Shown piece after piece: positions 21,045 to 37,121 of a stretch of 64,000 bases of DNA (position 1 is its first letter; the number at the start of each line of letters is the position of its first letter). The translations under genes and the position numbers were made by a program. Below the pieces are notes generated by a model. The model searched no databases, was not told the DNA's origin, and worked only from the letters and a program-made list of their open reading frames with translations. This stretch comes from Labia minor (taxonomy: Eukaryota > Arthropoda > Insecta > Dermaptera > Spongiphoridae), in assembly GCA_963082975.1 (NCBI GenBank), contig OY720349.1, positions 44,807,962-44,871,961 on the forward strand, read 5' to 3'.

Positions 21045-21775
21045 GTTTAAAGCGATGGGGGTTTGAAATTAATAGTGATAAGAAAAAATATTTAGTAACA
21101 AAATCTTAATATACAAAATGTAGAATTTGAATATGTAGAAAAATTGAATGTAATCACGAAGGATAATAATATTTGAGAAGAATTTAAATCGAGGTTGAAA
21201 TAGGGAAACGCCTGTTATCATGCAATAAAGGGGCTTATCGCTTCAAAATTATTATCAAAGAGGATAAAAATTAAAATATATAAAACAATTATATTACCCG
21301 TTGTATTATATGGGTGTGAGGCATGGTCTATGACCTTAGGAGACGAGAGTAGATTTAGAGTATTTGAGAATAGGATTCTGCGAAGCATTTATGGGCCAAA
21401 GAAAGATGAGGTCACCGGGGAATGCCGGAGACTGCATACCGAGGATTTGCATGATCTCCATGCATCTCCAAACATATTTAGGATTATAAAATCGGGAAGG
21501 CTGCGATGGGCAGGGCTCGTGACTAGAATGGGAGAGGAAAGAATGGCGAATAACATATTGGTGGGGAGACCGAGTGGAAAACGACCGCTTGAAAGACCAA
21601 TGTCGCGGTGGGTGGACAATGTAGGAAGGAATGTGAGAGAGATGGGAGAGGGTAGGGGTTGGATGGATATGTGTGGCTAAGGATAGGGACACTTGGAGAA
21701 CTGTGGTTGCTGCGGCCAAGAACTTTCGAGTTCCTGAGAGCCACAGAGATAGACAACATTTGAATTCTCAGTGCA
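21045..21775 (+). pseudogene. LINE reverse-transcriptase 3' fragment D3 (best preserved)
   Basis: The frame from about 21330 to 21680 reads LGDESRFRVFENRILRSIYG, PKKDEVTGECRRLHTEDLHD and GRPSGKRPLERPMSRWVDN. This is the widespread C-terminal part of insect non-LTR retrotransposon ORF2, after the RT palm and thumb. Upstream, GFEINSD and VEFEYVEK continue the RT with frameshifts. The end reads DRDTWRTVVAAAKNF-like and then AGAGCCACAGAGATAGACAA. No endonuclease or catalytic YADD/FADD box is present, so it is a 5'-truncated dead copy. Confidence 0.85.
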
Positions 21776-32997: not shown

Positions 32998-33001
32998 ATA
33001 T
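32998..33001. repeat. Target site duplication, left (ATAT)
   Basis: ATAT directly precedes the TG of the 5' LTR. The same four bases directly follow the CA of the 3' LTR at 37118-37121. The target is AT-rich, so a chance match of four bases is possible. Confidence 0.7.
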
Positions 33002-33543
33002 TGTGGGAATGGAGCCTTTTGGCTCATCACCGTCCGAATCATCAAAAGCCTGGCACATCTTACTGCCTCAGGGTCGGCCATTCTCAACCACAATATCATC
33101 GGAGTTGGTGCTTCCTCTCAACGCCGCTCCAAGCAGCGAGCGCCCCAGACGCCGTCGCCGCCTCCCCACCATGCGCTACCATCACCGTCGCCGCCATTCT
33201 CCCACTCCACGCCACCGACCAATAGCAACCGAGTTCCAGCTGTTTGGACTTCCTTTTAAAAAGGACACGGACACGATTCGAGTTTAGTTGTACAGTTTCA
33301 GTTTAAGTTCAAGTATATAGTCAGATTTCAGTTTAGTTTTTATAGACAGTTTTACAGTCGACACTTTACAGTCCTTTGTACATCGCCAGAAGTATTCAAG
33401 AAACGAAGAAGTTACATTTTCATTTATTTTTACACTGTTTTTTATCTTGTTCATCTTTATTCAATAAAACGATATTTTTGCAACCATTTAAACAAAACAG
33501 ATATTTTTTGCTAAACAACCCCTAGACAACGAAATTCCCTACA
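33002..33543 (+). repeat. 5' LTR
   Basis: It begins TGTGGGAATGG and ends CCCTACA (TG...CA). The first 250 bp are GC-rich and contain an open frame of 93 codons from the ATG at 33009, the same frame that ends the main ORF in the 3' LTR. TTTTAAAAAGGACACGG near 33254 could be a TATA-like promoter element. AATAAA at 33463-33468 is a likely polyadenylation signal, which would put the R/U5 boundary shortly after. Confidence 0.93.
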
Positions 33544-33546
33544 AAT

Positions 33547-33564
33547 TGGAGGCTCAGTCCGTGA
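33547..33564 (+). other. Putative tRNA primer-binding site
   Basis: TGGAGGCTCAGTCCGTGA starts three bases after the LTR, the usual place for an 18-nt site complementary to a tRNA 3' end. It resembles, with mismatches, the tRNA-Pro-type site TGGGGGCTCGTCCGGGAT. The primer tRNA is not established. Confidence 0.5.
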
Positions 33565-33604
33565 TTGAAAACAACTCGTTTATCGTTCGGGCGAAAGAAG
33601 ATTC

Positions 33605-33850
33605 CTAGACTTATTCACTCTCAAGATTTTATGTGAATAATCTTCAAGAAAAGATACAAGATTCAAGATTCAAGTCTTATTCACTTTCAAGATTTTTGTG
33701 AATAATTCTTACGAAAAAGATACAAGATTCAAGATTGAAGATTTATTTACTGTCAAGATATTTGTGAATAATTGTCAAGGAAAAGATTCAAGATTTAAGA
33801 TTGAAAACTTATTCACTTTCAAGATTTTTTTTTTGTGAATAATCATCAAG
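33605..33850 (+). repeat. Four imperfect tandem repeats in the leader (about 65 bp each)
   Basis: The unit has CTTATTCACTTTCAAGATTT, TGTGAATAAT and a CAAGATTCAAGATT link. It occurs about four times between the primer site and the ATG at 33907. Repetition in this position could serve RNA dimerisation or packaging, or be neutral. No ORF is involved. Confidence 0.75.
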
Positions 33851-33906
33851 AAAGAAAATACAAGATATAATACAGTGAAGATTAAAGAAATAAAAATATA
33901 TTAAAG

Positions 33907-36861
33907 ATGTCGAAATTGGCTCGTTTTCCAAAAATCGCAAAAAACATAATGCAGGCCCAACCAAATGAATTGAAAGGACTAAAAACAATAATAACCGGTG
34001 ACGCAACATGCCGCCTCAATAGAAAAACCCTACTCAACTTTGAAGGGTTCAACTTTGTTGAAGGTTCTGAAGAATATGAGAAAAAATATGAAGAATTAAC
34101 GGAAAAACTATCCAGTAAGCAACTACATCAAACATCTAATATACTCAATCTTCCTGAGCAAGACAGCGACGAACTAATTAGAGGTAAAATTCTATCTTGG
34201 TTATGTACACTGGACGAAGATGATGATGATGATGAAGAAGAAGATGATGATGAAGAAGAAGAAGAAGAAGAAGAACTGGAAATAGTTCATTCTCCGGCTC
34301 GAAGCACACGAACCGAACAACCTATACCGAGTCATAACAACTACAGAAGACACGTCCAAATACAAGACATCGAATCAACAATTAAGAAATACGATGGATC
34401 AACCAAGTATCCAATCAATAAATGGGTCACTGAAATCGACGAAGCCGCTTCACTCTACGATTTGGACGACAGACACGTGCTGATACTTGCCAAACGATCA
34501 ATTCAAGGCTTAGCAAAAACTTTGGTGGACAGTGAACAAAATATAAACTCCTGGAAGAAGCTCAAAAGTATTCTGCTAAAAGAATTTTCTGAAAAAGTTA
34601 ACGCAGCGGACATTTTCAGACAACTCGGAAACTCCATGATAGAGAAAAATGAAGACGCCTTTGCTTATTATCTACGAATGAAAGAATTGGCAAATCAAGT
34701 AAATGCAAGCGATCAGGTCTTGATGGATTACGTCATAAATGGAATACCTGATCCAAACCAGAAAATGTTCTTGCATGATGCATCTAGTTTAGAGGTTTTC
34801 AAGCGCAAAATTAAAATATGCGCTCGAATGAGAAAAACAAAACCTCAAGAATTGGTTACACCCGCCAGAAGACAGGAAGAACAAAAACCCAACCAGATCA
34901 GATCAACAAAGCCAGTCATAAAAACACGATGTTTCAATTGTGGGGACCCACAACACTCGACAAATACATGTCCATTCAAAGACAAAGGGACTAAGTGCTT
35001 CAGTTGCAACGAATTTGGGCACAAGTCACCTCAATGCCCGAAAAAGTCCATAAACAGAAATATCAACATTGTGTCATATCATGGTGAAACAAATTACCAT
35101 AAAAACATCCAGCTTAACGGGTACCATATGAAAGCATTAATCGACACCGGAGCCTGTGCAACATTAGTCAGCGAATCGGCATGGCATGAAATAAACCATC
35201 CCGACCTCACAGAGTCCAAAAAAGTGTTCACCGGACTAGGAAAAGTTAAAATTCAACCATTAGGATACTTCCAGACACCAATCATAATTGACTCATCCAG
35301 CTATGATGTTCCAATTCATGTTGTCCCGTCAGAAGTAATAAATGAACCAGTCATCATCGGTAGTGATCTCCTAGTACAAGCTGAAACAACATTAAGTCCC
35401 CAAGGAATAACTTTAAAGAAGATAACCGAAGAAACAGAGATAATGAACACCGAGATAAAAAGTTCAACAGAGACGAATCTTTCTCTATACATAAACAAGA
35501 TACAGGAAGAGGATAGTGAAAAACTCACTTTAAACAATATAACAGAATCCCAAACTAAAAAGAAAACAGAGAAAATTGATACGAAAGAAGCTAAAGTAAA
35601 TGAATCCATAGAAAAAAAAGATGAAACACCAAAAGAAAAAGAAACAACTAAAGAGGAAAAAGATGTGAAAAAGGCAGAAGAAACCAAACCAGAAGTTAAA
35701 GAAGAAAAAGAGCCCTCTTCTGAAGAGAAGAAGAAAGAAGAGAGTGAAAATGAAAAGATGGAGGTAGGAAAAGAAGAAGAACCAGAAAAGAAAGAAGTAA
35801 TTGAAAAAGAAGAAGAAACTGAAAAGAAAGAATCGGAGAAAATAGAAGAGACTGATAAGAAACAATCTGATAAAAAAGAAGAGACTGAAAAGAAAGAATC
35901 TAATAAAAAAGGAGAGACTGATAAAGAGCAAGTCAAAGAAGAAGAGAATGAAGATAAAGAATCTCTAACGACTGATAATGAAAAAAAGACCGAAAGTGAA
36001 GTTAATGAAGAGGATAAAGTTAATGACGATGAATCAATGGAAGTTGATAAGGATGAAAGCACTTCAGAAGATCGAAATAAAACAATTCGTGAAGAAGAGA
36101 TTGATCCCAATGATAAAATTTTTTATCTTGATGAAACAATGCCTGAAAGTGAAGATGGTGAGAAAGACAGTGAAGAAGATGACGTTCCTAATTTAAATTT
36201 GGCGTGGGAAGTTTTAAAATTGGCAAAAGTGATTTATGAAAAACAAGCAAATGAAGGAAATAAAGAAGCAAAATTAAATTTAGCAAATGTCCTTTTAAAA
36301 TTAGACGAAATTAAAGAAGAAAGTTTTAAAGATAATGATAAAACACAAACTGCAAGTAAAGTTGAAACTGAAGATAGTGTTTTAAATAAAGAAAATGAAG
36401 ATTTTAATGTGGATTTAAATTTAGAAACAGGCATAAATGATTTATCCAAATCACAAGATATACTATTTTACGTGAAGAAAAAAATCGATAAATATCGAAA
36501 AACGAAGGCGAAGTGGAGAGATAAGGAAAAGAAGATTAACGTATTCGAGGCCGAATACATCGCAGGACGGCCGAATGTGGGAATGGAGCCTTTTGGCTCA
36601 TCACCGTCCGAATCATCAAAAGCCTGGCACATCTTACTGCCTCAGGGTCGGCCATTCTCAACCACAATATCATCGGAGTTGGTGCTTCCTCTCAACGCCG
36701 CTCCAAGCAGCGAGCGCCCCAGACGCCGTCGCCGCCTCCCCACCATGCGCTACCATCACCGTCGCCGCCATTCTCCCACTCCACGCCACCGACCAATAGC
36801 AACCGAGTTCCAGCTGTTTGGACTTCCTTTTAAAAAGGACACGGACACGATTCGAGTTTAG
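33907..36861 (+). CDS. Gag-protease fused to a captured NASP-like segment
   Basis: An uninterrupted 984-codon frame. Residues about 103-125 are an Asp/Glu tract. About 150-275 is a Gag core of retrotransposon type (KYDGSTKYPINKWVTEI...). Two zinc knuckles follow: C342-x2-C345-x4-H350-x4-C355 and C364-x2-C367-x4-H372-x4-C377. A retropepsin has ALIDTGACATLVSE (active Asp413) and a later IIGSDLL. About 545-757 is Lys/Glu-rich. About 759-810 reads DVPNLNLAWEVLKLAKVIYE and KEAKLNLANVLLKLDEIKEE, resembling the SHNi-TPR repeat of the histone chaperone NASP. The last 95 residues are encoded by the 3' LTR and are Arg/Pro-rich. RT and integrase are absent. The start is the first ATG after the leader. 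A Gag particle role is family knowledge; NASP origin is inference from motif resemblance. Confidence 0.9.
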   Translation: MSKLARFPKIAKNIMQAQPNELKGLKTIITGDATCRLNRKTLLNFEGFNFVEGSEEYEKKYEELTEKLSSKQLHQTSNILNLPEQDSDELIRGKILSWLCTLDEDDDDDEEEDDDEEEEEEEELEIVHSPARSTRTEQPIPSHNNYRRHVQIQDIESTIKKYDGSTKYPINKWVTEIDEAASLYDLDDRHVLILAKRSIQGLAKTLVDSEQNINSWKKLKSILLKEFSEKVNAADIFRQLGNSMIEKNEDAFAYYLRMKELANQVNASDQVLMDYVINGIPDPNQKMFLHDASSLEVFKRKIKICARMRKTKPQELVTPARRQEEQKPNQIRSTKPVIKTRCFNCGDPQHSTNTCPFKDKGTKCFSCNEFGHKSPQCPKKSINRNINIVSYHGETNYHKNIQLNGYHMKALIDTGACATLVSESAWHEINHPDLTESKKVFTGLGKVKIQPLGYFQTPIIIDSSSYDVPIHVVPSEVINEPVIIGSDLLVQAETTLSPQGITLKKITEETEIMNTEIKSSTETNLSLYINKIQEEDSEKLTLNNITESQTKKKTEKIDTKEAKVNESIEKKDETPKEKETTKEEKDVKKAEETKPEVKEEKEPSSEEKKKEESENEKMEVGKEEEPEKKEVIEKEEETEKKESEKIEETDKKQSDKKEETEKKESNKKGETDKEQVKEEENEDKESLTTDNEKKTESEVNEEDKVNDDESMEVDKDESTSEDRNKTIREEEIDPNDKIFYLDETMPESEDGEKDSEEDDVPNLNLAWEVLKLAKVIYEKQANEGNKEAKLNLANVLLKLDEIKEESFKDNDKTQTASKVETEDSVLNKENEDFNVDLNLETGINDLSKSQDILFYVKKKIDKYRKTKAKWRDKEKKINVFEAEYIAGRPNVGMEPFGSSPSESSKAWHILLPQGRPFSTTISSELVLPLNAAPSSERPRRRRRLPTMRYHHRRRHSPTPRHRPIATEFQLFGLPFKKDTDTIRV
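35554..36420 (+). other. Candidate captured host segment: NASP acidic tract and SHNi-TPR
   Basis: NASP proteins have an acidic, Lys/Glu-rich insertion directly before the repeat NLQLAWDMLDLAK...KEAQL..A..HLKLGEV. The order and spacing here are the same: K/E tract, then EDDVPNLNLAWEVLKLAKVI, KEAKLNLANVLLKLDEI. From about 36190 leucine is coded almost only by TTA (about 9 of 12), whereas the Gag part mixes CTA, CTC, CTT and TTG. A different origin for this part is therefore likely. The match stops after one repeat unit, so the chaperone fold would be incomplete. A chance K/E-rich alpha-helix is the alternative. Confidence 0.6.
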
Positions 36862-37117: not shown

Positions 37118-37121
37118 ATAT

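Follow-up and report, generated by a model that had tools for sequence, protein, structure and literature searches.

A non-autonomous LTR retrotransposon of Labia minor with a captured segment of the host NASP gene in frame with Gag and protease

This study concerns a retrotransposon with long terminal repeats (LTRs) within a 64,000-nucleotide stretch of the Labia minor genome (GCA_963082975.1, contig OY720349.1, positions 44,807,962 to 44,871,961), hereafter the window. The element has a full length of 4.1 kb and a single open reading frame (ORF), in which Gag and the protease (PR) are followed by a segment of the host gene for the histone chaperone NASP and a piece of a second locus, designated gene X. 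It belongs to family A of two NASP-bearing gag families; locus L052 is an autonomous partner in family A, and L053 and L056 are copies of family B. The element is composed as follows.

32998-33001, no strand: left copy of the target-site duplication ATAT, the same 4 bp as at 37118-37121
33002-33543, plus strand: 5' LTR, 542 bp, TG...CA, with 0 mismatches to the 3' LTR
33598-33829, plus strand: leader with 3.5 copies of a 66-bp tandem repeat (Tandem Repeats Finder)
33907-36861, plus strand: single ORF Gag-PR-NASP-X, 984 aa
33907-34900, plus strand: Gag, end approximate (Retrotrans_gag, PF03732, at aa 205-280, E 1.4e-4, 22.5 bits, cut-off 24.1)
34927-35043, plus strand: two CCHC zinc knuckles (zf-CCHC at aa 363-379, 16.1 bits, cut-off 20.8)
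35104-35394, plus strand: retropepsin (DTGA; PF13975 and PF00077 over the curated Pfam cut-off)
35541-36312, plus strand: captured host NASP segment, host aa about 193-503 (blastn against the host gene at C1:91119191-91121296)
36302-36460, plus strand: piece of gene X (C2:84.13 Mb); the overlap with NASP is an 11-nt joint
36461-36523, plus strand: sequence from the 3' end of family B (VKKKIDKYRKTKAKWRDK), its right boundary approximate; it aligns with L053 and L056 and is not in L052
36524-36575, plus strand: the family's own 3' end, common to the autonomous partner (96% identity to L052 5272-5323)
36576-37117, plus strand: 3' LTR, 542 bp, same sequence as the 5' LTR
37118-37121, no strand: right copy of the target-site duplication ATAT

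Directly 3' of the 5' LTR stands TTGGAGGCTCAGTCCG, and Gag contains an acidic tract near 34213-34280. The other zinc knuckle gave a weak zf-CCHC_4 match (aa 341-357), the CCHC motif being visible by eye; the gag and CCHC matches of the ORF stayed below the Pfam cut-off, yet these regions are collinear with those of L052. No Pfam match to reverse transcriptase (RT), RNaseH or integrase was obtained in the 984-aa ORF, whereas they are present in the order RT-RNaseH-integrase in L052, indicating that the window element is non-autonomous. Taken together, we assign a probability of about 0.88 to the reading that it is a Ty3/gypsy-type LTR retrotransposon in which pol was replaced, in frame with Gag-PR, by host sequence. 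The last 94 or so codons of the ORF at 33907-36861 lie inside the 3' LTR, where the fusion frame (36576-36861) gains an Arg/His-rich stretch (RPRRRRRLPTMRYHHRRRH), whereas the L052 frame ends before the LTR.

The two LTRs of L052 (C4:67.10 Mb), 479 bp each, do not differ from one another, and its one frame contains matches over the Pfam cut-off to protease, RVT_1, two RNaseH models, an integrase zinc domain and rve. Window 33348-35485 aligns with L052 at 93.9%, and a further match covers the 52 bases that precede the 3' LTR; between these two matches lies pol in L052 and NASP with X in the window, and common to both are the LTRs, the leader, gag-PR and the 3' end. That the Lys/Glu-rich tail might be the normal Gag tail of an autonomous relative is thus not borne out by L052, the one partner read, which has pol at that place. 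A gag-PR search, in which the best 114 of 592 candidates were considered, gave 23 matches at 89% identity or more, comprising 17 NASP carriers and 6 elements with frames of 1398-1399 aa, L052 among them, none of which had an adjoining NASP match. RT and integrase are presumably supplied in trans by the autonomous partner.

The genome searched was the window's own assembly (604 Mb, 71 contigs), in which the SHNi-TPR model PF10516 gave one match over the cut-off, at C1:91.12 Mb, and a second of 18.1 bits under it. The host NASP gene encodes 701 aa in one uninterrupted coding sequence (CDS), with an SHNi-TPR unit at aa 494-530 by Pfam (56 bits, cut-off 21), and its protein matched human NASP in the PDB at E 1.5e-47 with phmmer. 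The same program placed human NASP constructs on top for the window tail (E 1.9e-6 and 2.3e-6), followed by the "TPR-like superfamily protein" 7w5m (E 4.6e-4), which we take to be a plant NASP. At the DNA level, 35722-36312 was identical to host NASP in 544 of 606 columns (15 gap columns) and 35541-35756 in 211 of 258 (42 gap columns), the DNA identity over 35541-36312 being about 90%, and the alignment scored 819 bits, compared with a maximum of 68.9 bits in 100 codon-order shuffles. An initial annotation made from the window alone had proposed an LTR retrotransposon ORF with a NASP-like segment, that is, transduction of part of host NASP into a non-autonomous element. This is borne out by the retropepsin, the Lys/Glu tract, DVPNLNLAWEVLKLAKVI and KEAKLNLANVLLKLDEI, all of which are present, by the PDB matches and the comparison with shuffles, and by the host alignment, the breakpoints and the occurrence of NASP at 115 element loci. 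Its extent, given as 35554..36420, holds for NASP at 35541-36312 and fails for 36313-36420, which matches gene X.

The captured stretch comprises the Lys/Glu acidic domain, with a 33-nt repeat detected by Tandem Repeats Finder, followed by the downstream half of the interrupted TPR2. Since the match starts near host aa 193, TPR1 and the upstream half of TPR2 are not in it; it stops near host aa 503, so that about 10 of the 37 SHNi-TPR residues are retained, and TPR3-4, the capping helix and the H3-alpha3 site lie outside. PF10516 was not matched by Pfam anywhere in the element because the unit starts at host aa 494 and only its first ten residues were captured. The SHNi-TPR of the initial annotation has therefore to be withdrawn, the piece of fold present being the downstream half of TPR2. 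When the tail was searched by itself, Pfam returned just TPR_19 and DUF4748, both under the cut-off, and the C-terminal 198 aa of host NASP (aa 504-701) matched the genome once, at the host gene itself. Of the Leu codons, TTA makes up 10 of 46 in gag-PR, 10 of 16 in the NASP part with the tail, and 22 of 36 in host NASP, indicating that the shift is real, although weaker than "almost pure TTA", and is due to host NASP itself being TTA-rich.

Adjoining NASP, window 36302-36460 matched locus L055 (gene X) in 139 of 170 columns (E 8e-44), with 0 hits at E of 1e-6 or below in 100 codon shuffles of 36313-36523. L055 has an open frame of 1022 aa for a Glu/Lys/Asn-repeat protein, and gene X is known here from 489 aa of its downstream half; these 489 aa gave no Pfam match at E of 1 or below and no PDB match better than E 0.35. 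Its C-terminal 130 aa had one genome match, L055 itself (17 candidates), and an interior part of 132 aa gave 113 rows: one was L055 itself at 100%, and the other 112 were partial matches within elements that carry NASP. Among the latter, the best begin at query 40-49, within the shared tail, and some weaker ones (46-61% identity) reach back to query 5-35 as a loose alignment of NASP and X acidic sequence. The locus was not among the 148 CCHC matches obtained when the best 150 of 555 candidates were scored. On these matches, we read L055 as a single-copy host gene, gene X, an isolated old element being the less favoured alternative. L055 was also considered as a NASP-less element, i.e. an empty site, and this was dropped in view of the single-copy C-terminus, the restriction of interior matches to NASP elements and the missing CCHC match.

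Copies were counted by searching the genome with host NASP aa 394-503 as a protein query, which gave 117 rows from 116 candidates: 1 in the host gene, 76 in family A, and 40 rows at 39 loci in family B, for a total of 115 element loci. Rows were assigned to family A if practically the entire query was matched, which gag-PR confirmed for 17 of the 76, and to family B if the NASP match was shorter. In 20 regions inspected for LTRs, the LTR was the same throughout. In family B, an adjoining gag match at 38-41% identity to family A was found at 36 of the 39 loci and an adjoining CCHC match at 38 (best 150 of 555 candidates scored), host NASP aa 125-214 as query reached up to 98% identity, and the two NASP copies examined, L053 and L056, had no RT in frame. 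At 36 of the 39 loci, the match to the 110-aa query ends between positions 49 and 90 and leaves out block 76-110, which the other 3 have; we read the short matches as loss of the TPR2 half, which is seen directly in L053.

No internal stop was found in 115 of the 117 rows, and a single open frame of 887-1123 aa including the tail was present in 14 of the 17 family-A copies with gag-PR. Among full-length NASP copies, the LTRs could be paired in 10, and in every one of these the two were identical; five loci (L034, L038, L043, L047 and L050) stand outside this count. In shorter copies, the pairs were 99.2-100% identical. The 10 full-length copies are flanked by repeats of 4 or 8 bp, and the 8-bp ones (TATATATA) may be chance matches in AT repeats. 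Thus, the NASP chimera itself has spread as dispersed copies, and the element is young.

Some copies depart from the full-length structure. L045 1087-9901 (C5:65.61 Mb) and L038 (C2:88.33 Mb) are head-to-tail arrays of NASP units with common LTRs, the units being 2.1 kb and gag-deleted (four internal copies) or 3.6 kb. L044-L051 are shortened, with gag missing between its own acidic tract and the Lys/Glu tract of NASP, and several of them retain frames of 510-581 aa; these endpoints suggest that the shortened copies arose by deletion between acidic-codon repeats. No gag-PR match accompanied 59 of the 76 A-type NASP rows among the best 114 of 592 gag-PR candidates.

The joints give information on the history of the chimera. 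At the 5' X/NASP joint, GAAGAA is common to L055, L056 and host NASP, and at the 3' NASP/X joint, CGAAATT is common to host NASP and L055, is kept in the window and has one change in L056. In L056, NASP lies between two gene X pieces that are about 120 nt apart in L055, indicating that NASP entered an X-bearing copy or that NASP and X entered together. L053 carries an internal deletion of the family-B sequence between two copies of GATAAAACA. Families A and B have common deletions of 24 nt and 108 nt relative to host NASP. Sites at which A and B agree against the host numbered 14 of 540 with L053 and 20 of 538 with L056; those at which host and A agree against B numbered 19 with either copy, and those at which host and B agree against A numbered 22 (L053) and 19 (L056). 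Because these patterns are nearly even, the shared deletions and the shared X tail are the stronger argument for a single origin. In the window, moreover, a truncated B end leads into the A end, while copies of family B continue to a stop of their own, which favours the direction from B to A. The joints and alignments therefore suggest one capture, in family B, by template switching, followed by transfer to family A.

In the sequence of steps that we infer, the RT of a family-B element would switch templates onto gene X and NASP transcripts at 6-7 nt of shared sequence, producing Gag-NASP-X fusions in family B. A later template exchange between A and B would move NASP, X and the B end into family A, where they would replace RT-RNaseH-integrase. 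The chimera would then spread with the partner's LTRs, leader, gag-PR and 3' end retained and with RT and integrase acting in trans, and loss of gag between the two acidic-codon tracts would yield the 2.1-kb derivatives.

A related process is suggested by a third gag family, represented by L057 (C6:23.499 Mb; about 48% gag identity). A query of 69 aa of its tail, which does not include its Asp-rich run, gave 11 rows in the genome: 6 in elements found by gag, 1 beside a gag match at C10:37.08 Mb, 1 at C1:26.5 Mb, and 3 at C1:79.17-79.18 Mb. Two parts, aa 1-38 (87%) and 35-69 (97%), make up the match at C1:79,176 kb, and the 105 bases examined there contain an 82-bp GT-AG intron that is precisely absent in L057, with 23 of 23 nt (7 left, 16 right) matching across the joint. 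We read this as capture of the L057 tail from the spliced mRNA of a third gene (Y), insertion of intron-like sequence into an old element copy being less likely. The PDB matches of the L057 tail (best E 4.6e-4) look compositional. L057 and L054 (C2:7.274 Mb), the latter with no NASP match, are both non-autonomous, with acidic tails and with the SH3-like C-terminal end of integrase kept (SH3_Tf2-1, under the cut-off).

The share of Asp and Glu was 0.31-0.38 in all five non-autonomous tails read (window, L053, L054, L056 and L057), measured in L054 and L057 only on the stretch before the integrase-like end; it was 30% in gene X and 0.16 over the 100 aa that follow the protease in L052. This recurrence of acidic tails favours a role for the tail, but three of the five share one NASP capture, so that independent cases are few. 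H3-H4 chaperoning by the captured piece appears unlikely because it lacks TPR3-4, the H3-alpha3 site and all but ten residues of the SHNi-TPR unit, and we lean weakly toward the view that it serves as a lengthy, disordered acidic extension of Gag instead. Extending this to a general statement, we tentatively raise the possibility that related animal retrotransposons repeatedly trade pol for acidic host stretches (NASP, X and a third, spliced gene), pass them between families and keep them as a working Gag tail. If true, this would be domestication in reverse, with an element recruiting parts of host chromatin proteins.

Several points weigh against parts of this account. The number of partners depends on the six long frames mentioned above, with L052 as the one read. 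The host NASP CDS has no intron in the captured stretch, and an RNA route is consequently not demonstrable for NASP itself; the "cDNA" of the initial annotation thus stands as a capture but not as a cDNA step, the spliced route being seen only for the L057 tail. The NASP match in the window starts at AACAGAATCC and the L052-like end at AGAAGATT, and neither is proof of switching because the second parent is unreadable at both joints of the A chimera. With site patterns so nearly even, A is not shown to descend from the very B copies compared here, and the shared 24-nt and 108-nt deletions could instead be later gains in the host. In terms of function, the TPR2 half looks dispensable in family B, and 3 of the 17 full-length A frames are interrupted (704, 704 and 722). 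Family-A substitution ratios were 0.31-0.49 in gag-PR and 0.43 and 0.77 in two NASP blocks on few changes (6 synonymous and 16 non-synonymous together; 0 and 6 in the X tail), too thin to establish protein-level constraint on the tail within the family, and frame-keeping indels are partly expected from slippage in the 33-nt repeat.

The explanation that survives best beside a working tail is that the host pieces are passengers without a role, given that any sequence could replace pol if the partner provides RT and integrase, and that the frames are open simply because the copies are young; we put this a little short of even odds. It fits with non-synonymous changes in family-A NASP and X that are not clearly depleted, with identical LTR pairs, which leave little time for decay, and with the TPR2 half not being seen at 36 of 39 B loci. 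What it accounts for less readily is that all five non-autonomous tails are acidic although drawn from NASP, X and a third locus (three of them, again, from one capture), and that 14 of 17 full-length frames are open from Gag through the tail, with indels between A and B keeping the frame. When only these two are compared, a useful acidic Gag tail and a passenger seem about equal.

It may also be supposed that the NASP piece lets Gag bind histones, either H3 or, via the acidic domain, H1, and so affects nuclear entry, the integration site or silencing. According to the portions of the sources consulted, human sNASP contacts H3 at an alphaN site (E177/W180/D181), and its acidic region is reported to be necessary for H1 (PMC9122598) but was found dispensable for H3-H4 binding (PMC9122598, PMC4838342). 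The captured helix spans the alphaN site and keeps the Trp; however, the window aligns there as Asn-Trp-Glu, the A copies L033 and L049 read TNLKFAWKV, the helix is missing from most B loci, and the H3-alpha3 site (R242, E246, Y249, L253) is downstream of the capture. The "H3-binding motif" of the initial annotation is thereby reduced to one of two published H3 sites, in which, as far as these portions go, only the Trp of three named residues is unchanged. We regard an effect through histones as unlikely.

We are similarly doubtful about a small-RNA effect, in which transcripts of the NASP copies yield piRNA or siRNA against host NASP or the NASP sequence shields the element. That 115 loci are highly similar in sequence to the host gene would suit it, and a moth precedent exists in the excerpted text of PMC9674220, where partial Masculinizer retrocopies flanked by gag fragments make silencing RNAs. 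The reverse direction, with the acidic domain of NASP derived from an element, or chance convergence of low-complexity sequence, is very improbable, for although both sides are Lys/Glu-rich and the tract holds a 33-nt repeat, the match also takes in the TPR2 half, which is not repetitive, codon-shuffled controls score no more than 68.9 bits against 819, and an acidic insert in TPR2 is general to NASP as described in the section of PMC4082323 consulted.

Some other observations were made in the window. Long open frames on the minus strand at 35316-36110 and 35530-35931 lie opposite Lys/Glu codons and are probably a by-product of this codon composition. An ORF at 21330-21680 presumably resembles the C-terminal end of RT proteins of non-LTR retrotransposons. 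Rfam and tRNA scans of the 64-kb window returned nothing.

As a rule, gene capture by LTR elements is observed only once it is complete. In this one genome, the progenitor gene stands together with an autonomous partner, with chimeras of both families, with their shortened derivatives and with a spliced-intron case, so that the path leading from the capture of an mRNA to a chimera that spreads becomes readable. It can now be tested why one position on Gag is repeatedly taken by acidic segments of host origin, and whether a histone-chaperone gene is affected by the presence of more than 100 near-copies of a part of it. A literature search of open-licence PMC papers, by titles and the starts of abstracts, found no report of NASP capture by a retrotransposon.

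Among known systems, oncogene-transducing retroviruses carry a host coding piece that is fused in frame to Gag and replaces pol, so that a helper is needed; the element described here has the same Gag fusion in place of pol, but no env or infection was seen. LTR-mediated retroposition in animals was reportedly treated by Tan et al. 2016. As described in the parts of PMC5408686 and PMC9674220 consulted, such retroposition likewise involves template switching at microsimilarities between an LTR element and mRNA, and it gives partial gene copies, whereas here the chimera itself is a spreading family. The Pxyfem retrocopies of Plutella xylostella likewise place a piece of an insect host gene beside gag fragments; in the consulted part of that source (PMC9674220), they are W-linked tandem clusters with a small-RNA function, whereas the elements here are dispersed, with LTRs, target duplications and an open Gag fusion. 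In comparison with the NASP/Sim3/Hif1 family, the tail descends from NASP but is without TPR1, TPR3-4, the capping helix and nearly all of SHNi-TPR, and is not a NASP protein. Maize Bs1, according to the portion of PMC7264820 consulted, is likewise an LTR element with transduced pieces of several host genes; here, in comparison, the module is found in two gag families, an autonomous partner is present in the same genome, and NASP is carried at 115 loci at least.

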